64,000 bases of DNA from an uncultured Anaerolineae bacterium. GTDB taxonomy: Bacteria; Chloroflexota; Anaerolineae; Anaerolineales; Villigracilaceae. The translations under genes and the position numbers were made by a program. Shown one piece after another: positions 32,158 to 48,073 of this stretch (position 1 is the first letter of the stretch; each line of letters opens with the position of its first letter). The notes beneath the pieces are model-generated. The model was not told the DNA's origin. It searched no databases and saw only the letters and a program-made list of their open reading frames with translations. The DNA lies in contig CAIJPN010000086.1 in the NCBI GenBank assembly GCA_903822545.1, positions 1-64,000 of the forward strand. The letters run 5' to 3'.

Positions 32158-32162
32158 AATCC

Positions 32163-32208
32163 ACACATAAAAAAACCGCGCCATCACCGGCGCGGTTTTT
32201 TTATGTGT
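32163..32208. terminator. Bidirectional terminator, perfect 20-bp stem
   Basis: Arms at 32163-32182 and 32189-32208 are perfectly complementary around ATCACC. GC-rich tops (CCGCGCC/GGCGCGG) are flanked by seven A/T on both sides. It serves both the HAD gene (plus) and the cytochrome b-c gene (minus). Confidence 0.93.
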
Positions 32209-32230
32209 AAAATTGAAAGGACGCAGGGTT

Positions 32231-33391
32231 TTATTTTTCGGGTGCTCCGGCATCAATCCATGCCTTGATTTGGGTCAATTCATCTGCTGTGAATTGACCG
32301 GGGTGTCCACCGGCATTTTGTTTGATAACCAGCTTGCTGTTGGCACTGTCTTTGGGTGTGATAACCTTCATCGCATCGGCGTATGTGGTCAGGTTGACAT
32401 TGCCCATGGCGGTTGCGCCATGGCACATGCTACATTTTTTCTGGGCAAGCGGTCCGGCAAAGGCTTCCCACGTCAGGGTTGTGACGGCTACAGGTTCAGG
32501 GGTGGGGGTAGGGGTGGGCAAGGGGGTCGGAGTCAGCGGGTAGAAGGCTGGTACGGTTTCGCCCTGTGGCAGTGTTACGACGGCGGTGGTTTCAAAGGCA
32601 ACGAAGTAGTAAAAGCCCACACTGAACGCCGCCACCAGCACAAAGGCGAGAGGAAAATAAATCATCTGGCGTTTTCTCAGCACTGTCGGGGCGATTTGCA
32701 CTTCGTGTTTGCCTGATTCTATTGCGGCCAGTTCTGCCGGGTGTTCGTGTAACATTTCTTCCCGGCTGAGTTTGCCGGTAAACATGCTCAGGTTGAGATG
32801 TTTGATGTGAACATGGTAGAAGTGCCAGATGATGATGGCTGCCACTGCCAGGACAGCTTCACCCCCATGTGCGGCTTTCGCAGCTGGGATGGCTTCGCCG
32901 GGCAGATAGCGCAGTGTGGAGATTGGGTTCCACATCATGAACCCTGTCAGTCCCATCACCACAGTTCCCCAGATGAGCGCCAGGTATTCGATTTTTTCAG
33001 CGTATGAGTAGCGCCCATAATAGCCTTTGTGGCGTCTGAAACCCAGGTAATACTGCACATCTTCGTAAACGTGCAACGCATCGCTGATCCATGGGATCAT
33101 GCTGATGGGGGTGCTCAGAACCATTACGCGGTACATCACTTCCAGCACATGCACCAGGCTGACGATCATCATCACGATCGCAGATGCGTGATGGATGTTG
33201 CGGGCTACTTCCACCCCGCCGGTCAACTCAAAGAAAGCGGTGCTAATTGGGGAAAGTGGGTATCTTTGGGGCAGGCCAGTAAAACCCAGCAGGCTGAAAG
33301 AGATCAAAAAGATGAAGTGTTGTACGCGTTGTAACAGGTCAAAACGAACAAACACTTTTTTCTTCGTCGGGGTGCTGGTCATGTCACTCAT
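32231..33391 (-). CDS. Cytochrome b (FdnI/thiosulfate-reductase type) fused to monohaem cytochrome c
   Basis: 386 residues. The N-terminal four- to five-helix di-haem cytochrome b has His pairs in NIHHASAIVMMIVSLVHV and WHFYHVHIKHLNLSMFTGKLS, the pattern of formate-dehydrogenase-gamma-like quinol oxidases. A Pro/Thr linker (PLPTPTPTPEP) follows. A C-terminal cytochrome c domain has KKCSMCHGATAMGN as CxxCH and ends with ADELTQIKAWIDAG. Quinol electrons could thus pass from haem b directly to an attached haem c. The ATG at 33391 overlaps the end of the nonahaem gene by 8 bp, with GAGG upstream. It is the last gene of the unit and ends at the bidirectional terminator. Confidence 0.88.
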   Translation of the reverse strand: MSDMTSTPTKKKVFVRFDLLQRVQHFIFLISFSLLGFTGLPQRYPLSPISTAFFELTGGVEVARNIHHASAIVMMIVSLVHVLEVMYRVMVLSTPISMIPWISDALHVYEDVQYYLGFRRHKGYYGRYSYAEKIEYLALIWGTVVMGLTGFMMWNPISTLRYLPGEAIPAAKAAHGGEAVLAVAAIIIWHFYHVHIKHLNLSMFTGKLSREEMLHEHPAELAAIESGKHEVQIAPTVLRKRQMIYFPLAFVLVAAFSVGFYYFVAFETTAVVTLPQGETVPAFYPLTPTPLPTPTPTPEPVAVTTLTWEAFAGPLAQKKCSMCHGATAMGNVNLTTYADAMKVITPKDSANSKLVIKQNAGGHPGQFTADELTQIKAWIDAGAPEK

Positions 33392-34598
33392 AGGTGGCCT
33401 CTTCCGATGTGTCCTTCGGCTGCCTTTCACGCGCTTTGGGTTTCGCAGGTGGGCGGAACTTGTTGATCATCAGACGGGCAAAGTCCAGCACAACCAGTAT
33501 GCCCATGGGGATGAGCGCACCTGGGATCAAGAATTGGTAGAACAGGTTAACGTAGTATACGATAGGGTATTTTTCGGCTGATGGGATGTAGTGCGACATC
33601 CACGATTCTGGGAAGTTGGTATTCGCTTCGGGATGGCAGGTTTGGCAACGCGCCAGCAGGTTTTCTTTGACTTCCAGCCCCTTTTTGGGGTCATCCACTT
33701 TGGTAATATCGTGGATTCCATGGCAGTCATAGCAAACCGGTTTGTTGGTGGTTGCGTCTGGGGCAACTTTTTCAAAGATGGTAACTGTGGTGCCGTGGAA
33801 ATCTGCCACATAGGTGTTGAGAACCTGGGTGGAGATCCCATATTTGTCCATAATGGTTGGGTCGGTATGGCATTTGGCACAAATTTGCGGTGACATCAGG
33901 CGGAAAGTAGATGTACGCGGATCTTCAATGATGTGAACACCATGACAGTCGATACAGGTGGGAACATCGGGGTTGCTCTCATCCGATAGGGCTTCGCCGT
34001 GTACGCTGTTCCTGTATTTATCGTAGATGGCGCTGTGGCATTTGCGACAGGTTTGCGGAATCCATTGGCGGGTATCGGGCAAAATTTCCCCGGTGTTTGT
34101 ATCGTGAATACGACGAACATCGTGGGCGGTGTGGCAGTCGGTACAGATGGCCGCTTCCATTTGGCCGCTGGCGCGGGCAGCAGCGTGGGCACTGTCTTTT
34201 TCCTGGCTGGACTGTTCCTGGTGGCATTGGGCGCAGGTTTCGTTTAAACGTAAGGTGGCTTCACGCGCGCTGCCCGCTTTGAAGTCGTGTCCCATGCCAG
34301 GTTCAAAGCCGACGTGACATTGAACGCAAGTAATTCCGCCTTCTCCGTGTACCGAAAGGGTAAATATTTGCGGGTCTACAAACAGGTTGTAGAAGTCACC
34401 GTTGGGTAGGTTGACGGAAATTTGGGGATTTTGGTGACAGGCCAGACAGGCATCGTTTTCAGGCCCGGCAAGCACACGGGAGCTTGCAGCTGTTTCTCCC
34501 GGGCCAGGGGTGGCTGCTGCTGCCGGGAAGACAGCCAGCCCCAGGGCGACGATTAACACCGTCAACCCGGTAATAAAAAAGTAGTGGCGGATGCGCAT
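33384..34598 (-). CDS. Membrane-anchored nonahaem cytochrome c (copy 2)
   Basis: 404 residues. The N-terminal signal/anchor FFITGLTVLIVALGLAVFPAAAA directs it to the periplasmic face. Nine CxxCH motifs are visible: CLACH, CVQCH, CAQCH, CTDCH, CRKCH, CIDCH, CAKCH, CYDCH and CQTCH. A C-terminal helix (LIPGALIPMGILVVLDFARLMI) anchors the other end. There is no CxxCK, so it is not an NrfA- or ONR-type nitrite reductase. It lies between two cytochrome b genes and is a clear paralogue of the gene at 35328. A role as electron conduit from the adjacent cytochrome b is inferred. Confidence 0.92.
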   Translation of the reverse strand: MRIRHYFFITGLTVLIVALGLAVFPAAAATPGPGETAASSRVLAGPENDACLACHQNPQISVNLPNGDFYNLFVDPQIFTLSVHGEGGITCVQCHVGFEPGMGHDFKAGSAREATLRLNETCAQCHQEQSSQEKDSAHAAARASGQMEAAICTDCHTAHDVRRIHDTNTGEILPDTRQWIPQTCRKCHSAIYDKYRNSVHGEALSDESNPDVPTCIDCHGVHIIEDPRTSTFRLMSPQICAKCHTDPTIMDKYGISTQVLNTYVADFHGTTVTIFEKVAPDATTNKPVCYDCHGIHDITKVDDPKKGLEVKENLLARCQTCHPEANTNFPESWMSHYIPSAEKYPIVYYVNLFYQFLIPGALIPMGILVVLDFARLMINKFRPPAKPKARERQPKDTSEEATYE

Positions 34599-34602
34599 TA
34601 CT

Positions 34603-35331
34603 TCAGCTCTCCTGGTTGTTGGTTTTGACTGACTTCTCGTTTCTAACCAGCCGTTCGTACTCTTTAGTATGGAATTCGCGCATTTCTGTTTCGCTCAGAC
34701 GGCCGGTGAAGATGCTCAGGTTTAATCTTTCAAGATGGACATGGTAGATGTGCCAGATCAGGATGAAAACCGCTGCGACGATGGATTCGGTGCTGTGGGC
34801 CATTTTGGCAGCTGGAACTACCCCGCCGGGCAGGAATTGGGTGAATTCCACCGGGAACCAGATGATAAACCCGCTGATGCCCATGATGCCAAACCCGAAG
34901 AAAACTACCCAGTAAGTTACTTTCTGCTCGAAGTTGTATCTTCCAAATTTGGGTTTGTCGGAGCGCATAAAAAGCAAGTACTGGAGCATATGCCCGGCAT
35001 CGCGCACGTCTTGCCAGGTGGGTAGCAGGTCGCCGGGCAGTTTGCGGCGGGTGATCTGGTAGATGATGCGTCCCAGGTGGTAGATGGCCTCCAGGGCCAG
35101 GATGATGGCTGCGATGTGGTGGATTTGCCGGATCATATCCATGCGTTCCGGGGTGGAGAGCAGGTCCTGGCTCCAGGAGAACTCGCGATATTTTTGCGGT
35201 AGGCCGGTGAGCATCAGGACTGTGGCGCTCAGGAACAAGATCAAGTGTTCCCAGCGCTGCCCAACGTCAAACCGCAGGAAAGCTTTTTCTTGTTGCACTT
35301 TTACTGTGGTTGATTTTTGCTTTCCGGTCAT
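34603..35331 (-). CDS. Di-haem cytochrome b subunit (FdnI-like)
   Basis: 242 residues with four to five membrane helices. Haem-ligand candidates are QIHHIAAIILALEAIYH and WHIYHVHLERLNLSIFTGRLSE, as in quinone-linked cytochrome b561/FdnI proteins. It is paralogous to the N-terminal part of the b-c fusion at 32231 but has no haem c tail. The ATG at 35331 overlaps the preceding nonahaem gene's TGA (ATGA). It pairs with nonahaem copy 1, and likely oxidises or reduces menaquinone for it. Confidence 0.9.
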   Translation of the reverse strand: MTGKQKSTTVKVQQEKAFLRFDVGQRWEHLILFLSATVLMLTGLPQKYREFSWSQDLLSTPERMDMIRQIHHIAAIILALEAIYHLGRIIYQITRRKLPGDLLPTWQDVRDAGHMLQYLLFMRSDKPKFGRYNFEQKVTYWVVFFGFGIMGISGFIIWFPVEFTQFLPGGVVPAAKMAHSTESIVAAVFILIWHIYHVHLERLNLSIFTGRLSETEMREFHTKEYERLVRNEKSVKTNNQES

Positions 35332-36437
35332 GGCATGCTTCTCCTCACACGGTCTACGATAGAGCGGACGATTTGCAGGATGACGTAAATCACGCAGACC
35401 CACAAGACAAACGGGGTAAAAGATGAGTAGAATACTTCTACATAGTATAGGATGGGTGTACGTTCCAGGCTGATTTCGTTGTGGCCGGTCCAGGCGTCAG
35501 CCCAATTGGGCCCGGCGGTGGGGTGACATTGTTTGCAGGTTTGCAAAAGGTTTTTGGGATTAACCTTTGATTCAGGATCGGTTGTCTTGCGGATGTCATG
35601 AATCCCGTGGCAGTCGGTGCAAACGGCGCTATCGTGCCAGATGGTGGGCCAGCGTGCTTTGTACACGGAAACATCCACCCCGTGCCAGGAGCGTTTGTAG
35701 ATGCTGTAAACATCGGCAGAAAGCCCGTATTTTGCCATTAAGTCTTGGTTGGCGTGACAGCCTGCGCACAATTCCGGGCTTTGGACGCGAAATTGGATGG
35801 TTCGGGGATCCTGGATGTTGTGTACGCCGTGGCAATCGGTGCAAACCGGCACATCTTTATTATCTTCTGAGATCAGGGCCATGCCGTGGACGCTTTGTTT
35901 GTAGGTGTCAACGATTTGGCCGTGACATTTGCTGCATGTTTCTGAAATCAGGGTGCGAGGCTCATCCGGTTTTTGTACGTTGTGCGAGCCGTGACAGTCG
36001 GTGCAGACTGGTGCTTCGAGATTCCCACCGGTGGCGGCGCTTGCGTGCATACTATCAAGTGTTTTCTCGTAGTTGGCTGAATGACACTTTTCGCACGATT
36101 TGTAATAGACCCGGGAAAGTTCGCGTTTGCTTTGGTAACTGATTGCAGGATGAGGGTAGGTGGTGATATCGGTGTGGCAGGCTTCACATTCAATGCCTAG
36201 CGGGCTATGGATGGAATGATTGAGCACATCCTGTGAGATGAACAGCGAGAGGGTTTCACCGCTGGGCAGTGTCATTTTCAGGTTTGGGTCGCTATGACAT
36301 TGGAGACAGTATTTTTCTGTTTCTTGGGCGGGTTTCCCGGCGCTCGCAGGGGATGTTACCAGGATACTCAAAAGCAGCACCAGTGCGCCAGCCGCGATCA
36401 ATCCAATTTTATGATGATACCGATTGCGCGATGTCAT
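35328..36437 (-). CDS. Membrane-anchored nonahaem cytochrome c (copy 1)
   Basis: 369 residues with an N-terminal signal (IGLIAAGALVLLLSILVTSPASA) and a C-terminal helix (FTPFVLWVCVIYVILQIV). Nine CxxCH: CLQCH, CEACH, CEKCH, CTDCH, CSKCH, CTDCH, CAGCH, CTDCH and CKQCH. Spacing and sequence follow copy 2 closely, so a duplication of the cytochrome c/cytochrome b pair is likely. Its start ATG overlaps the TGA of the small membrane protein gene. There is no CxxCK catalytic haem. The electron partner is unknown. Confidence 0.92.
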   Translation of the reverse strand: MTSRNRYHHKIGLIAAGALVLLLSILVTSPASAGKPAQETEKYCLQCHSDPNLKMTLPSGETLSLFISQDVLNHSIHSPLGIECEACHTDITTYPHPAISYQSKRELSRVYYKSCEKCHSANYEKTLDSMHASAATGGNLEAPVCTDCHGSHNVQKPDEPRTLISETCSKCHGQIVDTYKQSVHGMALISEDNKDVPVCTDCHGVHNIQDPRTIQFRVQSPELCAGCHANQDLMAKYGLSADVYSIYKRSWHGVDVSVYKARWPTIWHDSAVCTDCHGIHDIRKTTDPESKVNPKNLLQTCKQCHPTAGPNWADAWTGHNEISLERTPILYYVEVFYSSFTPFVLWVCVIYVILQIVRSIVDRVRRSMP

Positions 36438-36640
36438 GACCGAGATTCCTCCTGGTTTTTTCCTTTTTCGTTGGATTCTCTCTCATCCAATTCTTCATCT
36501 GTAGGTTCTTGTGTTTCGTTAGCGACCAGTCCGGCTCGACGAAGCAGGTATGAAACGCCAAACAAAACGAGGAGTGGAACCAGACAGCGCAGGATGAACA
36601 GAAAACCCACAAATATTGGATTGGCAGATGTATCGTTCAT
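36434..36640 (-). CDS. Small single-pass membrane protein in the cytochrome unit
   Basis: 68 residues. One helix (IFVGFLFILRCLVPLLVLFGVSYLL) is followed by an Arg/Arg stop signal and a strongly acidic tail (EPTDEELDERESNEKG). A GGGAGAAGCG-type ribosome site precedes the ATG, and the TGA overlaps the ATG of nonahaem copy 1, so it is a real coupled gene. Small membrane subunits accompany Hmc- and Qrc-type redox complexes; a similar accessory role is an inference. It opens this transcription unit. Confidence 0.7.
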   Translation of the reverse strand: MNDTSANPIFVGFLFILRCLVPLLVLFGVSYLLRRAGLVANETQEPTDEELDERESNEKGKNQEESRS

Positions 36641-36821
36641 CGCTTCTCCCTCCGCGTCAGGGATTGCTGACAGCTTTTGACGTGTGTTGTGAGCATTGCA
36701 TCTCCAGAGATGAATATAAGGTTAAGCTAGCATAAGTATAACTTAAACGAATACTGGGATAAGAGAATTATGTCATTATTTATGCTTACATAAATAATAA
36801 TGTTAGGGTAGGGATTAAAAA

Positions 36822-36854
36822 CTTCAGGGTAAAAACACTGTTTTTACCCTGAAG
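36822..36854 (-). terminator. Rho-independent terminator of the NrfD module
   Basis: CTTCAGGGTAAAAAC (36822-36836) pairs perfectly with GTTTTTACCCTGAAG (36840-36854) around ACT. The minus-strand transcript continues with TTTTTAATCC. It separates the octahaem/FeS/NrfD unit from the next cytochrome unit. Confidence 0.88.
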
Positions 36855-36875
36855 TAAGTGAAGGCAGAATCAGCT

Positions 36876-38096
36876 TTAGTGTTCGGAATGCTCAAATATC
36901 GGTAGCAATTTTACTGCCAGGGTGATAACTGTCAGGGCGTAACAAACTACCAGGATGCCAACTCCCCATTCGATGGGCGCCGGGAAGTAGCTTCCAGCGG
37001 GCAGTTGGTAGAGTGTGCCTGGGGAATATGACAGCGGGACGAAGAGACCGCCAACTGTCACGTTCCAGCGATGAACGGCGATGCCGATCATTGCGGATAG
37101 GGCTCCCAACACGGCGGCGGCTGGGCTGCGATTGAAGCGCGGCACCAGGAACAGGATGGCTGGAACCAGGATGCCAAGCAGCACTTCACCTACATAGAAG
37201 CTGAAGTTGAAGGGGGTCTCTGCGCTCAGCATGGAAAAGGCGCTCATGGTTCCAGATGTGCGTCCATAGTAGGTAACGGCGGCCATGTCCCAGAATTTGA
37301 TGTATCCGTACGAAAGCAGGGCCACGCCGCTGAAACGTGTGATCATGCGCAGGACATCGTGTTTGATGTTGCGTTTGCGGGTGATCCACTCAATGACGTA
37401 AGCCAGGGCGGCTGTTACCGCCGGCCCGGATGCAATTGCTGACAGGACAAACATGATTGGCATGCTGGGCTTGAACCAGACCGGGCGTGATTTGATAACG
37501 CCGTAAGCCGCACCGAGTGATGATTGGTGTAGCAGTGAAATTACCAGGCCCAGGGCTGCAAGGTAGGGGGTCAGCTTGTGCAGGAAATGGGCTAATTTGC
37601 GCAGGCTGGGCCAGTTATCAAACCATTTGGTTTCGACGATGACTGGTGCAAATTCTGCGATCAGGATGGTCAGGTAGATGGTGATGCACATGGTGACTTC
37701 CCACAGCACCGAGTGAACATTCCAGAATACCCAGGGATGCCAAAAACGGTCGGGGCGGCCAATGTCCATAACCAGGGTTAGCAGGGCCGAGGTGTATCCG
37801 GCGAAACCAACCAGCACGGCCAGCCGGATGATGGGCTGGAGACGTTTGATGCCGAAGATGTATACAATCGCCGAGAGGGTGAATGCGCCAGCGCCCAGGG
37901 CTATGGATGTCAGGTCGATGGTAATCCACAGTCCCCACGGGACGGAGTCGCTCATGTTGGTGATGCCCAGGCCCTTGATGAAGATTATGATGGCCGAGTA
38001 CAGGCCAATTGCCAGGCCTACGCCCAGCATTCCCATCCACACCAGGAAGGCCGGTTTGGGCAGTTGGAATTTGGGTTCCAGTTCTGAAATAGCCAT
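36876..38096 (-). CDS. NrfD/PsrC-family membrane subunit
   Basis: 406 residues with ~10 membrane helices. Quinone-interacting membrane anchor of the NrfD/PsrC/ActC/HybB type. Landmarks: PWGLWITIDLTSIALGAGAFTLS, MDIGRPDRFWHPWVFWNVHSVLWEV and LHQSSLGAAYGVIKSRPVW, all family-conserved. NrfD proteins carry no haem but bind quinol near the membrane surface and may translocate protons. It starts 2 nt after the ferredoxin gene, with GGAGGG upstream, and ends just before a terminator. The partners are the FeS protein and the octahaem cytochrome immediately upstream. Confidence 0.94.
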   Translation of the reverse strand: MAISELEPKFQLPKPAFLVWMGMLGVGLAIGLYSAIIIFIKGLGITNMSDSVPWGLWITIDLTSIALGAGAFTLSAIVYIFGIKRLQPIIRLAVLVGFAGYTSALLTLVMDIGRPDRFWHPWVFWNVHSVLWEVTMCITIYLTILIAEFAPVIVETKWFDNWPSLRKLAHFLHKLTPYLAALGLVISLLHQSSLGAAYGVIKSRPVWFKPSMPIMFVLSAIASGPAVTAALAYVIEWITRKRNIKHDVLRMITRFSGVALLSYGYIKFWDMAAVTYYGRTSGTMSAFSMLSAETPFNFSFYVGEVLLGILVPAILFLVPRFNRSPAAAVLGALSAMIGIAVHRWNVTVGGLFVPLSYSPGTLYQLPAGSYFPAPIEWGVGILVVCYALTVITLAVKLLPIFEHSEH

Positions 38097-38098
38097 GT

Positions 38099-38950
38099 CT
38101 ACATGCCCTCCTTGGGCGGGATATAGTACACACTCGTCTCTGTGCCAAGATCATCGCGCAGGCGCAGTGTGGCGTTGTTGGCGATTACCTGTGAGACGCG
38201 GCTTTCTGGGTTTTTTAGGTTCCCAAATGCGCGTGCGTTTACCGGGCAAATGTTGACACAGGCAGGTGTGGCTTCGCGATCTTCTCCTGGGGTTAGTTTT
38301 TTCTCTGTTTCTTCAGACATAGCCATGTCGATGCGTTGGATGCAGAAGGTGCACTTTTCTACGACCCCGCGCGGTCGGCGTTCCACTTCTGGGATGCCCC
38401 AGGTGGGGATAAAGGGGTTTTCATCGGTGCGCGATTCCCAGTTGAATTTGCGGGCATCGTAAGGGCAGGCTACTTCACAGTAACGGCAGCCAATGCAGCG
38501 CCCATAATCCATGACTACCAGGCCATCTTCACGGTGATATGTGGCTTTTACCGGGCAAACTTCTACACATGGTGCGTTTTGGCAGTGCAGGCAAGGCCGG
38601 CTGAGGAAGAATGTGTGCCCTGAAGTGGTTTTGTCTTTGATGACCAGGTTCCAGGGTTTATCGCTGAAAACATCGTTCGTGGCGTTGCATGCGCGCTGGC
38701 AGTATTCACAACCAATGCACAGGTCAAGGTTAATAACCATGCCCCAGTGGTTTTCGCCGGTTGCGCCATGACCGCCGCTTTCAGCTGCGCCAGGTCCACC
38801 TTCCAACTGCTGTTGTTTCAGTGCGCCGAAGGGGGAAAGTGGGCCGGTGGTGAGCAGCGGAGCCAGGATAGCTGACCCGGCGGTGGCTGCAACCATCTTG
38901 ATGACATCGCGACGGGTTAGGTCGATAACTACTTTCTTTTTCTTGGCCAT
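38099..38950 (-). CDS. Tat-exported four-cluster ferredoxin subunit (NrfC/HybA-like)
   Basis: 283 residues. A twin-arginine signal DLTRRDVIKMVAATAG at residues ~10-25 exports the folded protein. Cys groups for four [4Fe-4S] clusters: CIGCEYCQRAC, CLHCQNAPCVEVCP, CIGCRYCEVACP and CTFCIQR with CVNICP. This is the standard electron-wire subunit between a periplasmic redox protein and NrfD. The ATG overlaps the octahaem gene stop (TAATG). Together with NrfD and the octahaem cytochrome it forms a quinone-cytochrome module; the reaction direction is unknown. Confidence 0.94.
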   Translation of the reverse strand: MAKKKKVVIDLTRRDVIKMVAATAGSAILAPLLTTGPLSPFGALKQQQLEGGPGAAESGGHGATGENHWGMVINLDLCIGCEYCQRACNATNDVFSDKPWNLVIKDKTTSGHTFFLSRPCLHCQNAPCVEVCPVKATYHREDGLVVMDYGRCIGCRYCEVACPYDARKFNWESRTDENPFIPTWGIPEVERRPRGVVEKCTFCIQRIDMAMSEETEKKLTPGEDREATPACVNICPVNARAFGNLKNPESRVSQVIANNATLRLRDDLGTETSVYYIPPKEGM

Positions 38951-39930
38951 TATTCTTCCACCTCCACAAGCCGGATGCGCTTGCTGACGATCCAGGCTGC
39001 CACACCACCGGTGATTAAACCGATGATTGCGCCCTGGATCAAGCCCGTGTAAAGACGGACATTGTTTTGGGTCTGAAGCGTCTGGATTGTCTGTTCATTT
39101 TCCTGAATCTTCCTTTGCAGTTCTTCCTCAGTCAAAACAGCCTGTTCCACGTTTTCACCTGAGAGCCGCACAATGGTATCGCGGGTGTGGACGGTGTCTT
39201 TGTGGCAGGAAATACAGGCTTCAGAACCGACCGAGAATGTGTGTCCAGTGGCGAATAGTCCGCCCGTGGAACTGGCATGGGAAGCGGTTGCCATGTGGCA
39301 ATTGCTGCACTGCAAGCCGGCAGTGGAGTGCGTGCCGTGCGTGAAGGATGAACCGGTATCTTTGTGGCAGTTGCCGCACAATTCGTTGATGCTGGCGGCA
39401 CGAGGTTGTTGTGAGTGGGAGTTATGGCAAGATTCGCAGTTAATATTCATTTGCCCGTGATTGCTGGCGCGCCATTCATCGGTGGTGGTTTTGTGGCAGC
39501 GCGCGCACAGCGTCGCATCGGGGGTGATTGGCATGGGGTTTTGGGGATGATTCGTCTGCATGGGGCCATGGCAGGCTTCACAGGTTACACCTTCTTCTTC
39601 ATACTTCCCGGTGGCAGGATCATACCCGGTAGTGTGGCATTCCAGGCATGTAACCGCCGAACCCTGCTTTGACCAATCCTGTTGGAAGATTGGGGATGAA
39701 AAAGCCTGGGAGTGAAGTGTACCCTGCCAGGTTTCATGTACATCTTTGTGGCAAGTTGCGCAGGCAGCCGAACCAGTGTAACCAGCAGATTCTGCAACTG
39801 GGGCAGGGGCGGGGGCAGCCTGGGCGGGCCGTGCCAGGCTGATCGCCATACCGAGAGCAGTTGTCACGGCAAAAACAACCAGGAAAGTGATCCAGATCGG
39901 TTTACTAACGATTTGCTTGAATTTTTTCAT
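38950..39930 (-). CDS. Membrane-anchored octahaem cytochrome c
   Basis: 326 residues. An N-terminal signal anchor (IWITFLVVFAVTTALGMAISLA) is followed by eight CxxCH motifs: CATCH, CLECH, CEACH, CARCH, CESCH, CGNCH, CSNCH and CISCH. A Gln/Glu-rich coiled-coil-like stretch (EEELQRKIQENEQTIQTLQ) and a C-terminal helix (LIQGAIIGLITGGVAAWIV) end the protein. No CxxCK, so not a nitrite reductase or hydroxylamine oxidoreductase. It heads the unit with GGAGGAG upstream. It likely passes electrons to or from the ferredoxin/NrfD pair. Confidence 0.93.
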   Translation of the reverse strand: MKKFKQIVSKPIWITFLVVFAVTTALGMAISLARPAQAAPAPAPVAESAGYTGSAACATCHKDVHETWQGTLHSQAFSSPIFQQDWSKQGSAVTCLECHTTGYDPATGKYEEEGVTCEACHGPMQTNHPQNPMPITPDATLCARCHKTTTDEWRASNHGQMNINCESCHNSHSQQPRAASINELCGNCHKDTGSSFTHGTHSTAGLQCSNCHMATASHASSTGGLFATGHTFSVGSEACISCHKDTVHTRDTIVRLSGENVEQAVLTEEELQRKIQENEQTIQTLQTQNNVRLYTGLIQGAIIGLITGGVAAWIVSKRIRLVEVEE

Positions 39931-40285: not shown

Positions 40286-40783
40286 ATGTCTCAATCCCCC
40301 AAAATGAAGTTTATGGTTGGCGGCCTGTTAATCCTGGCGGCTGTTATCTATCTGATCGTATCGTCCACCACTGCCAGCGCCCAATATTTCTTGACAGTGG
40401 ATGAGCTTAAGGCCAAGGGAAACAGCATCGCAAACCGCGACTTGCGCGTTTCTGGCGCTGTCTTGGGTGAAACGATCGAATATGACCCCAATACCCTGAC
40501 GCTTAAATTTGTAATCGCCCATGTTCCTGGTGAAACTGCCCAAATTGACGATGAAGGCGGTCTTGCCGAAGTCTTGCACCAGGCTGTTATCGACCCATCT
40601 CGCCAGAAACTTACGGTAATCTACGTTGGCGCCAAGCCAGACCTGCTGCGAAACGAAGCCCAGGCCATTATGACTGGCAAGCTGGATGAAAATGGTGTCT
40701 TCCATGCGGATGAACTTTTGCTAAAATGCCCCACTCGCTATGAAGAAGCAGTTCCTGAACAATCTGGCCCTGCGGGCAACTAG
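40286..40783 (+). CDS. ccmE: Cytochrome c maturation haem chaperone CcmE, CxxxY type
   Basis: 165 residues. Periplasmic haem chaperone tethered by one N-terminal helix (GGLLILAAVIYLIVSS). It has the CcmE OB fold, with DLRVSGAVLGETIEYDPNTLTLKFVIAH, VIYVGAKPDLLRNEAQAIMTGKL and the family turn DENGVFHADELLLKCPTRY. The haem-binding His of the usual HxxxY is replaced: the motif is C148-P-T-R-Y152. This Cys-x-x-x-Tyr form is the known alternative haem ligand of archaeal and some bacterial System I variants. AAGGAG precedes the ATG. It heads a ten-gene ccm cluster. Confidence 0.95.
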   Translation: MSQSPKMKFMVGGLLILAAVIYLIVSSTTASAQYFLTVDELKAKGNSIANRDLRVSGAVLGETIEYDPNTLTLKFVIAHVPGETAQIDDEGGLAEVLHQAVIDPSRQKLTVIYVGAKPDLLRNEAQAIMTGKLDENGVFHADELLLKCPTRYEEAVPEQSGPAGN

Positions 40784-40784
40784 C

Positions 40785-40824
40785 GTTTGCGCAAACAAGG
40801 CCGTCTCCTGGCGGGGACGGCCTT
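40785..40824. repeat. Hairpin between ccmE and ccmF
   Basis: The palindrome GTTTGCGCAAAC (40785-40796) is followed by AAGGCCGTC/GACGGCCTT (40797-40805, 40816-40824). It may tune the ccmE:ccmF ratio; the trailing T stretch is short. Confidence 0.55.
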
Positions 40825-40848
40825 ATCTTGTCTTTAGGAGGAGCAGTT

Positions 40849-42969
40849 ATGCTTGCTGATTTCGGTTATGGAATTTTAGTTGTAGCTTTTTTGACATCTG
40901 TCTATAGTGTTGGAGCCGCTTTTTACGGCCATTTCGAGAAAAAACAAAAATGGGTCGAAAGCGCCCGCCTTGCCATGCAGTTGACTTTCCCACTATTGAG
41001 CCTGGCCGCGCTCGACCTGCTCTACTTGCTGGCGACCAACGATTTTAATGTTAGCTTTGTTTACGAAGTCACCAGCCGCGATATGCCTCTCTACCTGCGC
41101 CTTACAGCTTGGTGGGGCGGCCAGGCTGGATCGTTACTGTTCTGGTCGTGGCTCATGTCCGCTTTCGCCACGGCGGTCACCCTGCGTAACTGGGATCGCG
41201 ACCGCGAATTCCTGCCCTGGGTGGTGATTGTTTCATCCGTCACCATGGCGTTCTTTATCGGCCTTAACGTAATGCCCTTTTTTGAAGAAAACCCCTTCGC
41301 TCGCTTCTGGGCATCAACCCTGGATGGAAGTGTAAATGCTTACACCTTCCAGCCTGCCAATTCAGTAGCCTTCCCCACCCCCGATATGGTGGCAACCTTT
41401 GATGGCAACGGCCTCAACCCGCTGCTGCGCCACCCCGGCATGATCATTCATCCCCCCATGCTTTACCTGGGATTTGTCTCCTTCGTCATCCCCTTCGCCT
41501 TTGCGATCGCCGCCCTGGTGACAGGTCGCACTGACGACCGCTGGATCCGCATCACCCGCCGCTGGACCCTGATTGCCTGGCTGTTCCTCTCCCTTGGCCT
41601 GGTACTCGGCGGGCGCTGGGCCTACGATGTGCTCGGCTGGGGCGGCTACTGGGGCTGGGACCCGGTTGAGATCGCGGCTTTCATGCCCTGGCTTACCGGC
41701 ACAGCCTTCCTGCACTCGGTCATGATCCAGGAAAAGCGCGGCATGTTGAAACACTGGAACATGATCCTTATCATCCTGACCTATGCCCTGATCATTTTCG
41801 GGACTTTCCTCACCCGTTCTGGTGTGCTGTCGTCTGTCCACGCTTTTGCTCAGAGCAACATTGGTCCGGCCTTCTTTGGCTTCATCGGCATCACTTTTGT
41901 GACTTCGATCTCCCTGCTTATCTGGCGCTGGGCCGACCTCTCATCCGAAGCGCAAATGGATTCAATGCTTTCACGTGAAGCCCTGTTCCTGCTCAACAAC
42001 CTGCTTTTTATTGGTATCCTGGTCGTTTGTTTCTGGGGCGTCATCTTCCCATTGATTTCCGAATTGTTCACCGGGCAAAAAGTCACCGTTGGGCCGCCTT
42101 TTTACGAGCGCGCCACCGGGCCGCTTTTTGCCGGGCTGGTCATCCTGATGGGCATTGCCCCTCTCTCCGCCTGGGGGCACTCCACCATCAAAACCCTCGG
42201 CAGGGCCTTGTGGAAACCGCTCATCGTCACCATCCTGGTGACAATCGCATTTGTGGCCTTCGCTTTTACCAACCGCGAAGTGATAAACGATTACTTCCCC
42301 TATGCGATCATCGGCTTTTTCGCAGTTGCTATGACGGCATTCATCACACTTTATGAGTTCTGGCGCGCTGCCCGCGCCCGCAGCCGCGCTCAAAAAGAGA
42401 ATTTCTTCATCTCACTCTGGCGGCTGGCCGGAAGAAACCGCCGCCGCTATGGTGGTTACACCATCCACCTGGCGGTTGTGTTGATGGCAATTGGCATCAT
42501 CGGCATCGAAATGTTCCAGACCGAAACCCAGGTCAGCATGTCGCGCGGGCAAAAAATTGAATTCTCTGGCTACACCATCGAATTCAAAGATTTCTATTCT
42601 TTCAAATATGAAGATAATCGCTGGGTTAACCGCGCCGAAATGAACATCTATCGTGATGGACAATTCCTGACCATGTTGGCCCCGCGCTACGATGTTTACC
42701 CTGATGGACAACCCATGACCATTGCAGGCGTACGCAGCACCATGATCGACGACCTGTACATCATCCTGGTCAACTGGGAACAAGGCTCGGCAGACCTGGC
42801 ACCGTTTAAGATTTACCACAACCCGCTGGTTAACTGGTTGTGGTTGGGTTCCTATCTCTTTATCGTCGGCACACTCATCGCCGCCTGGCCCGATAAAGAC
42901 CCCGAAAGTCTCCCGGCGCGCGTGCGCGGCAAGCAAACCCCCGTCTACCAGAGCACTTCCGCCGATTAA
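40849..42969 (+). CDS. ccmF: Haem lyase subunit CcmF
   Basis: 706 residues. Inner-membrane subunit of the haem-apocytochrome ligation complex. About 14 helices. The WWD-type haem-handling motif is W-G-G-Y-W-G-W-D-P-V-E inside GGYWGWDPVEIAAFMPWLTG. WWGGQAGSLLFWSWL and the conserved HPPMLYLG segment (external His) come earlier. The periplasmic part near the C-terminus (residues ~560-650) has the family motif KDFYSFKYEDN. The ATG at 40849 is chosen because AGGAGG lies 7 nt upstream; the frame also opens at 40828. Confidence 0.96.
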   Translation: MLADFGYGILVVAFLTSVYSVGAAFYGHFEKKQKWVESARLAMQLTFPLLSLAALDLLYLLATNDFNVSFVYEVTSRDMPLYLRLTAWWGGQAGSLLFWSWLMSAFATAVTLRNWDRDREFLPWVVIVSSVTMAFFIGLNVMPFFEENPFARFWASTLDGSVNAYTFQPANSVAFPTPDMVATFDGNGLNPLLRHPGMIIHPPMLYLGFVSFVIPFAFAIAALVTGRTDDRWIRITRRWTLIAWLFLSLGLVLGGRWAYDVLGWGGYWGWDPVEIAAFMPWLTGTAFLHSVMIQEKRGMLKHWNMILIILTYALIIFGTFLTRSGVLSSVHAFAQSNIGPAFFGFIGITFVTSISLLIWRWADLSSEAQMDSMLSREALFLLNNLLFIGILVVCFWGVIFPLISELFTGQKVTVGPPFYERATGPLFAGLVILMGIAPLSAWGHSTIKTLGRALWKPLIVTILVTIAFVAFAFTNREVINDYFPYAIIGFFAVAMTAFITLYEFWRAARARSRAQKENFFISLWRLAGRNRRRYGGYTIHLAVVLMAIGIIGIEMFQTETQVSMSRGQKIEFSGYTIEFKDFYSFKYEDNRWVNRAEMNIYRDGQFLTMLAPRYDVYPDGQPMTIAGVRSTMIDDLYIILVNWEQGSADLAPFKIYHNPLVNWLWLGSYLFIVGTLIAAWPDKDPESLPARVRGKQTPVYQSTSAD

Positions 42970-42980
42970 TTGGGAATTCT

Positions 42981-43466
42981 ATGAAACGCATCCTCACCAT
43001 CACCATTTTCACCCTGTTCCTGGCGCTGGCGTTCGCATCTGTGGCTTTTGCCCAGCAATCTGGCCCTACCGATGACGATGTTAATGCCATTGCCAAGCAG
43101 CTTTTCTGCCCGGTGTGCGAAAACACTCCCCTGGATGTCTGCCCAACCCAGGCCTGCGCCCAGTGGCGCGCCCTCATCAAAGAAAAACTGGCCGCCGGGT
43201 GGAGCGAGCAGCAGATTAAAGATTACTTCGTAACCCAATATGGCGCGCGCGTGCTCTCTGAACCGCCTCGCACCGGCCTGAACTGGCTGGTTTACATCGT
43301 CCCGCCGGTGGTTTTCATCATTGGCGCAGTAATCCTTTACCGCGGATTGGTATCCATGCGCAAGCCGGCCGCCATGACTGTTGCCGAATCGGCCCCGGCA
43401 ACGAAAAATGAATCGGCGGAAGATTACATGAAAAGGGTTGAAGAAGAACTCAAAAAGCGCAATTAG
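42981..43466 (+). CDS. ccmH: Cytochrome c maturation protein CcmH (CycL)
   Basis: 161 residues. Periplasmic, anchored by a C-terminal helix (LVYIVPPVVFIIGAVILYRGLV), after a signal peptide ending at VAFAQ. Reduces apocytochrome disulfides for haem ligation through its CxxC, here LFCPVCEN at Cys43/Cys46. The usual RCxxCQN is modified, and two more Cys follow (DVCPTQAC). KEKLAAGWSEQQIKDYFVTQYG is family-typical. The gene starts 11 nt after ccmF. Confidence 0.92.
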   Translation: MKRILTITIFTLFLALAFASVAFAQQSGPTDDDVNAIAKQLFCPVCENTPLDVCPTQACAQWRALIKEKLAAGWSEQQIKDYFVTQYGARVLSEPPRTGLNWLVYIVPPVVFIIGAVILYRGLVSMRKPAAMTVAESAPATKNESAEDYMKRVEEELKKRN

Positions 43467-43505
43467 CTTTTTCAACCACAAACCACCTGTTCCAGGAGAA
43501 TGTTC

Positions 43506-44087
43506 ATGACCCAAACCAACCCAACCCCTGCTTCCCCCAGGCGCGGCGTGCCCGCCTGGGTGCAGGTGATTGTCTGGGCAATCTTGTTCGGATTGCTCGC
43601 GCTGGTCGCTTTTGGCCTGCGCAACGCCCAGCAGGGAACCGTCCAGGTGGGTGACACCATCCCCGGCTTTTCCCTGACCCTTTTCGATGGCTACCAGTAC
43701 CAGGATAAAAGCACCGTCAGTCTGGCTGATTTCAAAGGCAAAGTGGTTGTCATCAACTTTTGGGCTTCGTGGTGCAAACCATGTGAAGAAGAAGCCGCCG
43801 AACTGGAAGCCGTCTGGCGCGCAAATCAGGCCAATGGCAATGTGATATTCCTCGGCGTTGATTACACCGACACCGAACCTGAAGCGCGCGGCTACCTGAC
43901 CAAGTTCGACATCAGCTACCCCAACGGCCCCGACCTGGGCACTCGCATCTCACAGATGTTTCGCATCAAAGGTGTGCCCGAAACCTACTTCATCGATGAA
44001 AATGGCGTCTTGAAATATATCCAGATTGGCCCCTTCGCGTCTTCAGCAGAAATCCAGCGCGTCATCGACCAACTTTTGAATGATTAG
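43506..44087 (+). CDS. ccmG: Periplasmic thioredoxin CcmG/DsbE (TlpA/ResA-like)
   Basis: 193 residues. An N-terminal membrane anchor (VIVWAILFGLLALVAFGL) is followed by a thioredoxin fold. The redox motif is WASWCKPCEEEAAELEAVW. The cis-Pro lies in KGVPETYFIDENG. It keeps apocytochrome Cys or CcmH reduced. The ATG at 43506 is chosen because AGGAGA stands 7 nt upstream, while the ATG at 43500 is too close to it. Position in the ccm operon supports the CcmG role over a general TlpA. Confidence 0.9.
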   Translation: MTQTNPTPASPRRGVPAWVQVIVWAILFGLLALVAFGLRNAQQGTVQVGDTIPGFSLTLFDGYQYQDKSTVSLADFKGKVVVINFWASWCKPCEEEAAELEAVWRANQANGNVIFLGVDYTDTEPEARGYLTKFDISYPNGPDLGTRISQMFRIKGVPETYFIDENGVLKYIQIGPFASSAEIQRVIDQLLND

Positions 44088-44095
44088 GAATTGAC

Positions 44096-44617
44096 ATGGA
44101 ATTAGGCGCAATCATCCTCACCCTTGCTGTAACCCTGCTGGCGGTTGGTTTTATCGCCCGTCCCTTTTTTGAAAAGCGCAAATTTGGCGTTATCTCTGCC
44201 GAAGAACACGAACTTTCGTCCCTGTTGGCCGAACGTGACCGCCTCATCACCGCTTTGCAGGAATTGGATTTTGACAACACTCTCGGCAAAATTCCCGCCG
44301 AAGATTATCCTACCCAACGCGCAGGCCTGATGCAAAAAGCCGCCATCGCCATCCGCCGTTTGGATGAACTCCAGCCGCGCGGGCTGGCTGGCGATGCCGA
44401 AAGCCGCATCGAAGCTGTCATTGCCGCCCGCCGCGCCGATGCCGCCGCTGTGAACGAACCCGTTTCTGCGGCGATTTCTGATGAAGAACTTGAATCCATC
44501 ATCTCGGCCCGTCGGTCAGAACGCAAAGAAAAGTCTGGTGGTTTTTGCCCCAAGTGCGGCAAACCTGTCCTTCGCTCCGACAAATTCTGCCCCAGTTGCG
44601 GAAAATCCATCAAATAA
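44096..44617 (+). CDS. CcmI-like protein with C-terminal double zinc ribbon
   Basis: 173 residues. An N-terminal helix (GAIILTLAVTLLAVGFIARPFF) leads to a coiled part whose ERDRLITALQELDFDNTLGKIPAEDYPTQRAGL resembles the membrane-proximal part of CcmI. The tetratricopeptide half of CcmI is missing. In its place are an Ala/Arg-rich helix and a zinc-ribbon pair CPKCGK...CPSCGK at the end. It may be a cytosolic or membrane scaffold of the haem-ligation complex. Position between ccmG and the dihaem lipoprotein supports a maturation role. Function not proven. Confidence 0.65.
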   Translation: MELGAIILTLAVTLLAVGFIARPFFEKRKFGVISAEEHELSSLLAERDRLITALQELDFDNTLGKIPAEDYPTQRAGLMQKAAIAIRRLDELQPRGLAGDAESRIEAVIAARRADAAAVNEPVSAAISDEELESIISARRSERKEKSGGFCPKCGKPVLRSDKFCPSCGKSIK

Positions 44618-44636
44618 CACCGAAAGAACCCACCTG

Positions 44637-46586
44637 ATGAAATATCGCCTCCTGCTTGCCCTTGCCATCCTGGCTATTGCCTTGAGCGGCTGCATTTCAC
44701 TGGCCGAAGATATCACCCCGCCTCCCGGCTACCAATCGCCCACCCCTGCGCCCACATTGGGTAACCTGTTCCCACCTGCGGCCCCAGATCTTGCTGCGGG
44801 CGCCTCCATTTACGCCCAAAAATGTGCCGCCTGTCATGGCGAAAAAGGCCTGGGCGATGGCCCGCAGGCCAAACAATTGACCGTTAATGTGCCGGCCCTG
44901 GGCGTCCCAGAGATTGCCCGCCGCGCTGCGCCATCAGATTGGTACACCACCATCACCCGTGGCCGCATCCAAAACTTTATGCCACCATTTTCCAGCCTCA
45001 CCGACCAACAGCGCTGGGATGTGTTGGCTTACGCCTTCAGCCTGAGTACCACCCCAGAGCTTCTGGCGCAAGGCCAGGCACTCTACGCCACCAACTGCAC
45101 CGAATGTCATGGCGTAGATGGCAAAAAAGCTCCCGGGGCTGACCTGACCAGCCAGGAAGCCCTATCGCGCTTGACCCAAAACGACCTGTTCGGTTTCGTT
45201 AAAAAAGGCCTGAAGCAGGGTGCAGATGTAACCATGCCCCCCTCCAACCTGGCAGATAATGAAATCTACGCTGTCGTAGCCTACATCCGCACCTTTACGC
45301 TCATCCAGCCTGAGTCGGCTGCCACACCCGAACCGCCCGCCACGCCGACCCCGCCCACCCCGAACGCAGCTTCCGCTGATAGTGCAACCCCTGGCACCCC
45401 CGTGGCCACTGCTGCCCAGCCAGCCAACTTGGGCAGCATCAGCGGGAAAGTCAGCAGCCCTGGCGGGAAACTTCCCTCTGACCTGGTGCTGACCCTGCAC
45501 GGATTCTCCCACGACCAAACCGACAGCGCCTCTACCGGCCCCCAGGAAGTCATCACCCTCACGCTTACCCCATCCAGCGATGGCAGCTACAAAGCTGAGA
45601 ATGTTGAACTGGGCGAAAATCGTTTCTTCCTGGTTGAAACCCAGTACCAGGGTGTTTCTTATCAGACCGAAGTAGGGATCAGTGAAGCCGGGAAGACCGA
45701 AATGGTGCTGCCAGACCTGGTCATCTACGAAACCACCGAAGACACATCCAACCTGACCCTGAACCAACTGCACCTGTTTGTAAATGCGCCTGCCAACAAT
45801 ATCATCAACATGTATGCCCTGTATGTCTTCACCAACGCCAGCGACAAAGCCGTTGGCGTATCTATGGACGCGCAGGAACGCATTCCGTTTGTCAAAATCC
45901 CTGAAGTTGCCGTTGCCGACAGCCTGGCCTATGAAGATGCGCAAATGGGTGCATCATTCATGCAATATAACGAAACCGGCTTTGCCATGATCCCCACTGA
46001 TAAACAGTATGGCATTGCGGCCTCCTTCAACCTGCCCTATGACAAACAGGTTGAAATTTCCCAGCCGATAGCAGTCACTGCCAAAACCGTCTCCATCCTC
46101 GTCCCTGAAGGCATGACCATTACTGGCGACGGCCTGACAGATGGCGGCGTTCAATCGATGCAGGGCGGACAGAACTTCCAGATCTATTCAACCAGTGGCG
46201 AAGTGAAAAGCGGCAGTGCCCTCAACTTCACCATCTCAGGTGAACCCAAGGCCAGCTCAGGCACAACTGGCACAACCCAGGCCCCCGCAACCACCGACAG
46301 CAACCAGACAACACTGGTCATCGCTGTGGCGGCCTTTGGCGTAGTTTTAATTGTTGCCGGGCTGTACCTGTTCTGGCGCGATCGCAATCGCTCCGCCAGA
46401 GATGATGATTTTGAAGATGATGACTTCGAAGATGAAGAAAATGACGACTTAGACTTAAATGTCGAAGAAATCATGGATGCCATCATTGCCCTCGATGAAC
46501 AGTACAAAGCGCAAAACATCACAGAAGAAGCCTACCAGCAACGCCGCGCCGAGTTAAAAGCACGCCTAAAAGGCAAAGTGAAATAA
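44637..46586 (+). CDS. Dihaem cytochrome c lipoprotein with C-terminal membrane anchor
   Basis: 649 residues. A signal with lipobox (IALSGC, Cys ~20). Two class-I cytochrome c domains (~55-225): KCAACHGEKGLGDGP and NCTECHGVDGKKAPGA, each followed by a distal Met region (MPPFSSLTD, MPPSNLADNE). A Pro/Thr/Ala linker leads to a large beta-rich domain (~285-560) that I do not recognise. A membrane helix (LVIAVAAFGVVLIVAGLYLFW), an acidic strip and a C-terminal EEAYQQRRAELKARLK motif like that of the CcmI-like gene follow. It is inserted in the ccm operon. An electron-transfer role on the outer face is inferred. Confidence 0.85.
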   Translation: MKYRLLLALAILAIALSGCISLAEDITPPPGYQSPTPAPTLGNLFPPAAPDLAAGASIYAQKCAACHGEKGLGDGPQAKQLTVNVPALGVPEIARRAAPSDWYTTITRGRIQNFMPPFSSLTDQQRWDVLAYAFSLSTTPELLAQGQALYATNCTECHGVDGKKAPGADLTSQEALSRLTQNDLFGFVKKGLKQGADVTMPPSNLADNEIYAVVAYIRTFTLIQPESAATPEPPATPTPPTPNAASADSATPGTPVATAAQPANLGSISGKVSSPGGKLPSDLVLTLHGFSHDQTDSASTGPQEVITLTLTPSSDGSYKAENVELGENRFFLVETQYQGVSYQTEVGISEAGKTEMVLPDLVIYETTEDTSNLTLNQLHLFVNAPANNIINMYALYVFTNASDKAVGVSMDAQERIPFVKIPEVAVADSLAYEDAQMGASFMQYNETGFAMIPTDKQYGIAASFNLPYDKQVEISQPIAVTAKTVSILVPEGMTITGDGLTDGGVQSMQGGQNFQIYSTSGEVKSGSALNFTISGEPKASSGTTGTTQAPATTDSNQTTLVIAVAAFGVVLIVAGLYLFWRDRNRSARDDDFEDDDFEDEENDDLDLNVEEIMDAIIALDEQYKAQNITEEAYQQRRAELKARLKGKVK

Positions 46587-46634
46587 AAATGACCATGCGA
46601 AGGCCAGCCGCCTTCGCATGGTTTCTGGAATCTC

Positions 46635-47333
46635 ATGATAGAAGTCAAAAAACTCGTCAAACGCTTTGGGATGAAAATAGTTCTGCGCGGGCTCGACTTT
46701 CATGTCGAACCGGGCGAATTTGTGGCCCTGCTCGGCCCCAATGGAGCCGGGAAAACCACCTTCCTGCGCATCCTGGCCTCGTTATCGCGCCCCAACCTGG
46801 GAGAAGTAAGGATTTCCGGTTACCGGCTGCCCAACCAGTCTGCCGAAGTTCGCCAGCGACTGGGCGTCGTCTCGCACATGCCGCTGCTTTATCCCGACTT
46901 GAGCGCTGAAGAAAACCTCCAATTCTACGGCCGCATGTACAACGTCTCGCAGCTTGACGCGCGTGTGACCGAAGTCCTCAACCTGGTAGGCCTGACCCAG
47001 CGCCGCCGTGACCTGGTACGCACTTTTTCGCGCGGAATGCAGCAGCGGCTCGCCATCGGTCGCGCCGTGCTCCACGACCCCGATGTGATGCTCTTCGACG
47101 AACCCTACACCGGCCTGGATCAGGACGCCTCCGAAATGCTTGATGACGTGCTCAAAAACGTGGCAGCGCGCGGCCGCACCGTCGTTATGACTTCTCACGA
47201 CCTGGCGCGCGCCGAAGAACTTGCCACCCGCTTTGATGTGCTATCGCGTGGCACTATCACCGCATCCACCTCGCGGGCCGGGCTGGGCAGCGGCAACCTG
47301 CTCAACTTCTACAAACAAGCGCTGGCAGGCTGA
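46635..47333 (+). CDS. ccmA: Haem exporter ATPase CcmA
   Basis: 232 residues. Cytosolic ABC ATPase that, with CcmB, releases holo-CcmE from CcmC. Walker A GPNGAGKTT, signature FSRGMQQRLAIGRA and Walker B VMLFDEPYTGLD, with switch His in MTSHDLARAEE, are all present. The next gene, ccmB, starts 1 nt after its stop. Confidence 0.96.
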   Translation: MIEVKKLVKRFGMKIVLRGLDFHVEPGEFVALLGPNGAGKTTFLRILASLSRPNLGEVRISGYRLPNQSAEVRQRLGVVSHMPLLYPDLSAEENLQFYGRMYNVSQLDARVTEVLNLVGLTQRRRDLVRTFSRGMQQRLAIGRAVLHDPDVMLFDEPYTGLDQDASEMLDDVLKNVAARGRTVVMTSHDLARAEELATRFDVLSRGTITASTSRAGLGSGNLLNFYKQALAG

Positions 47334-47334
47334 T

Positions 47335-48036
47335 ATGGAAAAAGGAACCGACATCCGCCCCAGCGGAAACTACTTCCGAGCAGTTTCTGCCGTCGCCTGG
47401 AAAGACCTGGCTGCCGAGCTTCGCTCACGCGAACTACTATCTTCCATGCTGGTATTTTCCCTGCTCGTCATCCTGATCTTCTACTTTGCCCTCGAACTGG
47501 ATGTGAAAGCCCGCGAAAAAATTACCGCCGGAGCCTTATGGGTCACCTTCGCCTTTGCCGGCACACTTGGGCTGAACCGCTCCATGGCAGTCGAAAAAGA
47601 CCGCGGCTGCCTCGACGGCCTCCTGCTGGCCCCGGTTGACCGCTCAGCCATCTACTTTGGCAAAGCAATTAGCAACCTGGCCTTCATGCTCATCGTGGAA
47701 GTAATCGTTCTGCCAGTTTACAGCGTACTCTACAACGTCAACTTATTCAACTTCGGGCTGATTGGTGTGATCCTGCTCGGCTCACTTGGCTACATCTCGG
47801 TCGGAACACTACTATCCACCATGTCTGTGCAAACCCGCACCCGCGATGTGCTCCTGCCCATTCTGCTCTTCCCGGTCATCGTCCCCGTATTGGTCGCCGC
47901 TGTCAAAGCTAGCAGCGGCTTCCTGCAAAACCTGGAAATGAGCGAAATCATGGCATGGGTCAACCTACTGATCGTATACGACATCATCTTCACTGCCATT
48001 GCCTTCATGGTTTTCGATTACGTTGTGGAAGAATAA
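47335..48036 (+). CDS. ccmB: Haem exporter membrane protein CcmB
   Basis: 233 residues with six helices, the membrane partner of CcmA. The sequence begins with a cytosolic stretch containing VAWKDLAAELRSRELLSSMLVFSLLV, as in the family. FAGTLGLNRSMAVEKDRGCLDGLLLAPVD is a CcmB landmark. The ATG at 47335 is right after the ccmA TGA; a longer frame reaching 47221 overlaps ccmA and is not homologous. Confidence 0.95.
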   Translation: MEKGTDIRPSGNYFRAVSAVAWKDLAAELRSRELLSSMLVFSLLVILIFYFALELDVKAREKITAGALWVTFAFAGTLGLNRSMAVEKDRGCLDGLLLAPVDRSAIYFGKAISNLAFMLIVEVIVLPVYSVLYNVNLFNFGLIGVILLGSLGYISVGTLLSTMSVQTRTRDVLLPILLFPVIVPVLVAAVKASSGFLQNLEMSEIMAWVNLLIVYDIIFTAIAFMVFDYVVEE

Positions 48037-48073
48037 ACCCGCGACGGAAACCTAACTTTTTCAAAGGAGTTCT

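Follow-up and report, generated by a model that had tools for sequence, protein, structure and literature searches.

Two CbcL-like split units and a QrcD-type module in an Anaerolineae gene cluster, a probable menaquinone/multihaem cytochrome exchanger

An eight-gene redox cluster found within the window (meaning the whole 64,000-nucleotide stretch of uncultured Anaerolineae bacterium DNA that was analyzed) resolves, by homology, into two CbcL units, each split between a nonahaem cytochrome gene and a cytochrome b gene, and a QrcD-type c/FeS/NrfD module, and is probably a reversible menaquinone/multihaem cytochrome exchanger that feeds an envelope conduit and leans towards electron export. The first-pass annotation had suspected a quinone-cytochrome conduit of the Qrc/Cbc kind in a combination it did not recognize; the suspicion is borne out by the CbcL homology and by the QrcD residues found in NrfD, and the combination turns out to be the one just described. 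The system is real and conserved, and is kin to known quinone-cytochrome conduits rather than a new kind; in comparisons with the Geobacter, Qrc and Hmc types, no characterized complex proved to have the same subunit set, and literature searches on Chloroflexi/Anaerolineae brought up no account of such a layout. At the sequence level, the case is carried by homologies, haem ligand sets, proton-path residues, class-wide pairing and linkage.

Organization of the Cluster

The features of the cluster and its surroundings are as follows (window coordinates):

38950..39930, minus strand: c8, octahaem cytochrome c with a signal anchor and a C-terminal helix; 8 CxxCH; Pfam C554/C7/paired CXXCH
38099..38950, minus strand: FeS subunit, DsrO/QrcC-like, with a Tat-like leader and 16 Cys for four clusters
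36876..38096, minus strand: NrfD (PF03916), by residue pattern a QrcD/HybB/HmcC-type quinone subunit with N-side proton path residues
36821..36855, minus strand: intrinsic-terminator-like hairpin between units 1 and 2; 17-bp perfect arms, then a T run
36434..36640, minus strand: sTM (eighth gene), 68-aa one-helix protein with a good ribosome-binding site
35328..36437, minus strand: c9a, membrane-anchored nonahaem cytochrome; 9 CxxCH; predicted N-terminal half of a split CbcL
34603..35331, minus strand: b1, FdnI-like dihaem cytochrome b (PF01292); predicted C-terminal half of a split CbcL
33384..34598, minus strand: c9b, second nonahaem cytochrome; 9 CxxCH; assigned by homology to c9a and tree
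32231..33391, minus strand: b2c, FdnI-like cytochrome b with a C-terminal monohaem c domain; PF01292, 1 CxxCH, tree
32162..32209, minus strand: terminator-like hairpin after b2c; 20 pairs, T run
40286..48763, plus strand: divergent ccm gene run (ccmE, F, H, G, I, a 710-aa c-type cytochrome, ccmA, B, C)

All eight genes lie on the minus strand (39930-32231), and ORF and motif counts give 8 + 9 + 9 + 1 = 27 CxxCH, in agreement with the coordinates and the 8/9/9/1 haem c sites annotated initially. The two nonahaem/cytochrome b pairs are likewise confirmed as paralogous, c9a and c9b being 40% identical, interleaved with b1 and b2c (the latter carrying the monohaem c domain) and the sole two homologues found in the 5.53-Mb genome. 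No ORF in the window other than those of the multihaem cluster cytochromes has more than two CxxCH, a haem density far from chance. Regarding start codons, the b1 ORF can be extended to 35403, with the ATG at 35331 overlapping the c9a stop, and the b2c ORF can be extended to 33430, with a better ATG at 33391. The small sTM protein gave no match in a Pfam search, is 44-58% conserved before c9a in relatives, and has counterparts in sTM-like ORFs that come after NrfD at two other loci (L243 and L244).

The earlier view of an octahaem module followed by a second unit as one cluster holds for the gene order, but the intervening terminator splits the eight genes: with NrfD followed by a perfect 17-bp hairpin and a T run (36855-36821), they probably form two transcription units, c8-FeS-NrfD (unit 1) and sTM-c9a-b1-c9b-b2c (unit 2), within each of which the genes overlap or almost touch. 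Hairpins of different sequence occupy the same post-NrfD place at L032, L033, L062 and L063. Upstream of unit 2, at 36775-36798, there is also a perfect palindrome (ATTATTTATG-TAAG-CATAAATAAT) of Crp/Fnr-like 5-4-5 geometry, and in a similar place L032 carries an 8-bp palindrome of another sequence, spaced by 4 nt. By eye, a 19-codon leader ORF (MLTTHVKSCQQSLTRREKR; ~36699-36639, minus strand) overlaps the sTM start codon, and a similar one in L032 ends in WREKR.

The divergent ccm run, in which NCBIfam/Pfam support ccmE, ccmF, ccmB, ccmC and the ABC ATPase while the other genes are named by position and size, would mature the cluster cytochromes. Its 710-aa protein (44454-46586), located between ccmI and ccmA, has two CxxCH, and homologues of this protein adjoin ccm genes in L047 and L075.

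The Nonahaem Cytochrome/Cytochrome b Pairs

Judging by whole-length homology, each c9-b pair is a CbcL cut in two. In the inner membrane of Geobacter, CbcL acts as a quinone oxidoreductase; its nine c haems all have bis-His ligation, and its b domain is HydC/FdnI-like with six helices (PMC9129911, PMC6295460). It is needed for low-potential extracellular acceptors, and its c domain has a potential of -194 mV (PMC9129911). Profiles of c9 and b built from the window's class alone were run on Geobacteraceae genomes reached by a PpcA query (with a PpcA sequence matching PDB 1os6 over its full length), and in six of these genomes both profiles matched the same single ORF of 618-656 aa, with E-values of 1e-40 to 1e-48 for c9 and 1e-41 to 1e-46 for b. 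The three fused ORFs that were read have 9 CxxCH and 6 helices each, and the name CbcL is applied on the strength of how the ORFs of Geobacter sp. OR-1, G. argillaceus and Pelotalea are built. In the G. argillaceus ORF (L196), residues 13-324 match c9a and residues 337-565 match b1. Across the fused ORFs, the nine haem motifs align one to one with those of c9, and most of the distal His fall at shared positions. The split comes after the first membrane helix, the first helix of CbcL having its counterpart in the C-terminal helix of c9.

What is shared with CbcL (together with MtrH and MtoC) is thus nine bis-His c haems followed by an FdnI/HydC-like dihaem b. CbcL, however, carries c and b in one polypeptide, whereas here, and likewise in the class loci read, they are encoded by separate genes; unlike CbcL, the arrangement is also present twice, has a beta insertion after haem 1, bears an extra monohaem domain on one b, and stands alongside a QrcD-type module. 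Separate c and b genes are known from the menaquinol oxidoreductase CbcBA (Cbc5) of Geobacter (PMC7894505, PMC10989804), which differs in the seven haems of CbcA and in having no NrfD module, a distinction drawn from description and not from sequence. No relatives of c9b or b2c were found in plasmid records.

The structural models agree with these assignments. The best PDB profile match of c9 is 6r2q chain A, which we take to be MtrA of the Mtr complex, and the predicted c9a model (pLDDT 85.7) aligns with this chain over 217 residues at 4.5 A, while the predicted b1 model (pLDDT 86) has the FdnI fold (1kqf_C, Z 18.9), with four invariant His in the helices of the family alignment. The multihaem chain 6r2q_A bears the molecule name “Cystathionine beta-synthase”, which is wrong and may mislead searches. 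When c9 was compared with the PDB as a single sequence, its matches to yeast cytochrome c and nitrite reductases were short and motif-level and were set aside, as were its HAO-type structural matches (Z ~9), which reflect repeated haem packing at an rmsd of 9-13 A, MtrA fitting at a lower one.

The ligand sets bear on whether c8 or c9 could instead be the terminal enzyme of a periplasmic reductase branch (e.g., for an N or S compound), a reading that seems extremely improbable. The earlier claim that there is no catalytic haem stands up, CxxCK being absent from the cluster ORFs by motif count, and the c9 family (39 sequences) has nine CxxCH with nine conserved distal His, eight of them invariant, from which all c9 haems are predicted to be bis-His, so that c9 would offer no open site. 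The repeated haem packing shared with HAO-type enzymes does speak for such a branch, but at the high rmsd given above. In its favour, too, c8 contains a C554-like stretch; the c8 family has seven invariant distal His for eight haems, with spare His in the window protein, so that an open c8 site may exist.

The Octahaem Cytochrome/FeS/NrfD Module

By its residues, NrfD of unit 1 is of the QrcD/HybB/HmcC type. Its best score is to QrcD (288 bits, below the cut-off of 570), and the FeS subunit scores 189 bits with NCBIfam DsrO and 182 with QrcC, both below cut-off (400 for QrcC); the HmcB and HmcC equivalogs likewise fell short (65 of 420 and 174 of 550 bits). A proton path has been proposed for QrcD (PMC6303296), and mutation has shown D70, Y110, Y150 and S138 of QrcD to be essential (PMC13059093). 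Twelve of the 15 QrcD functional residues, these four and most of the proposed path included, map onto NrfD at a single offset of nine, any other offset giving at most two matches, and they are kept in ten class relatives of NrfD, E155 being variable. An Anaeromyxobacter HmcC-like protein keeps nearly all of them as well, whereas a CbcU candidate and the genome's own ActC-like protein (one example each) differ at most of the mapped positions; a reading of unit 1 as CbcSTU or ACIII was rejected on this residue pattern.

Unit 1 is not Qrc itself, because no molybdopterin subunit is linked: neither the ORFs nor Pfam revealed a molybdopterin-family QrcB among the cluster genes. The likeness to QrcABCD of sulfate reducers lies in the multihaem c, FeS and NrfD subunits and the conserved QrcD functional residues, whereas QrcABCD has QrcB, a hexahaem instead of an octahaem c, and QrcC/QrcD scores that the window proteins do not reach. 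Cbc4 (CbcSTU) of Geobacter also combines c, FeS and NrfD-type subunits but has a tetrahaem c and, in a set assigned by layout and not by name, a CbcU candidate devoid of the QrcD-type residues. An Hmc-like operon of Anaeromyxobacter soli (L194) encodes a split c9-b pair on the same strand as an NrfD-type module, but with an HmcBC-like module, a trihaem c7 in place of the octahaem cytochrome, and one c9-b pair only. In G. argillaceus (L196:2501-9224), the CbcL-like ORF has a tetrahaem c/FeS/NrfD set ~2 kb away, which makes the two module types neighbours there as well.

Synteny and Linkage of the Two Units

The order c8-FeS-NrfD-sTM-c9a-b1-c9b-b2c, the recurrence of which in other Anaerolineae had been suggested as a check, was found complete, or cut by contig ends alone, in six further genomes of two families (G280 and G130 from the same family; G057, G085, G109 and G021 from another). 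A seventh genome, G658, has one run of c10, c7/8, FeS, NrfD (only 40% identical), sTM, c9a (74%), b1, c9b, b2 and c7, keeping the module position with a different NrfD lineage. In the trees, c9a and b1 each fall in a long-stemmed clade confined to these clusters and c9b and b2 fall among ordinary pairs; the duplication is therefore old, and the pairs have kept company.

Units 1 and 2 might nevertheless be unrelated quinone-cytochrome units serving different pathways and merely neighbouring each other, as the terminator between them and G129, where unit 2 is present with no NrfD match at E <= 1e-60, would allow. This appears distinctly improbable given that a strong c9 and NrfD lie within 15 kb of each other in 20 of the 27 genomes having both (rearranged and divergent versions included), against a chance expectation of ~1% per genome, although the genomes are related and a binomial value overstates their independence; with the seven carriers of the window's cluster removed, 13 of 20 remain. 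The retained position in G658 and the sTM-like ORFs following NrfD elsewhere argue in the same direction, and Anaeromyxobacter soli repeats the idea of pairing, in that c9 and b share a strand with a trihaem c7 and an HmcBC-like module.

Putative Function and Direction of Electron Flow

The cluster would constitute the cytoplasmic-membrane end of a conduit that joins the menaquinone pool to a multihaem cytochrome chain lying outside the membrane. In unit 2, each FdnI-like cytochrome b would react with quinone and hand electrons to a membrane-anchored nine-haem rod (c9a or c9b), the one-haem c domain of b2c serving as a further docking point; in unit 1, NrfD (quinone site and cytoplasmic proton path), the FeS relay and the octahaem cytochrome would link the same quinone pool to the same extracytoplasmic haem network. 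Electrons may thus pass between menaquinone and c9/c8 and onward to c7/c8-type partners, most likely as low-potential export able to run in reverse. That the parts form one complex or circuit, that c7 and octahaem cytochromes encoded elsewhere are the outer partners, and that export is the prevailing direction is what we infer.

Candidate partners are found in the same genome, c7 on contig 25 (56%) and c8 on contig 11 (57-61%), and the tail of b2c is 52% identical to the tail of the contig 25 c7 cytochrome, which suggests a shared docking domain. Counting against the proposed conduit, both partners are unlinked to the cluster, a c10 cytochrome, which in many relatives flanks the pair, was not found in this genome, the two separately terminated units need not be one complex, and G129 has unit 2 with no NrfD module detected. 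Elsewhere in the genome (L058:6871-10325, contig 213), an HmcBC-like FeS/NrfD pair is followed by an ExtM-like octahaem cytochrome. A 765-aa b2 homologue at L035:12058-14355 has a tail of four monohaem domains in tandem, the number of such tail domains being variable.

Export is favoured because of the CbcL precedent and the outer cytochromes of the class, and import because QrcD- and FdnI-type modules, known chiefly as quinone reductases (PMC6303296), suit it energetically. In an import scheme, electrons from an extracellular or periplasmic donor would pass through c8 and c9 to menaquinone and on to ACIII and oxygen, energy being conserved in the manner of Qrc and formate dehydrogenase N. The QrcD proton path, a basis for electrogenic quinone reduction, is retained in NrfD (PMC13059093), and CbcL/MtoC relatives have been implicated in both directions (PMC6295460). 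The FdnI fold of b1 is also in line with import, as are the ACIII-like set (L060) and two COX1 genes of the genome. The potential of the CbcL c domain, which lies below the usual menaquinone potential, points the same way. Import is still rather unlikely, as export is the role of CbcL, the closest relative to have been tested, the window has no linked donor-side enzyme, and the class neighbours resemble outward conduits.

It also seems quite unlikely that the QrcD-type module and the two CbcL-type units make up one supercomplex with several quinone sites in series; such an assembly would be an energy-coupled, Q-cycle-like or reverse-electron-transport machine devoid of bc1 parts that drives or harvests extracellular electron transfer.

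Occurrence of Split CbcL Across the Class

Homologues of c9 are present in 117 of the 298 class genomes (39%), and in the neighbourhoods read, a cytochrome b bearing 0 to 10 extra CxxCH follows c9 wherever the contig allows. The neighbours of c9 are often large multihaem proteins of recurring families, namely c10 (44-67% identical, 15 loci), c7 and octahaem c8. A 2018 survey counted zero CbcL homologues in Chloroflexi (PMC6295460), perhaps due to looking for fused proteins. Being this widespread and usually placed beside large multihaem cytochromes, the c9 half of split CbcL could be searched for as a marker of quinone-linked extracellular electron transfer in this largely uncultured group, and the way the arrangement recurs in the class suggests an ability, in many uncultured relatives, to give electrons to the environment or take them from it; the recurrent coupling to a QrcD-type module, in turn, makes energy conservation at the quinone step testable.

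Some class loci depart from the usual pair. A head-to-tail fusion of two c9 domains (16-18 CxxCH) precedes a lone cytochrome b at L073:8190-10130 and L074:821-2647, and very large multihaem proteins (32 CxxCH in ~1250 aa) are encoded directly upstream of a c9-b pair at L064:4583-8329 and L067:5844-9593.
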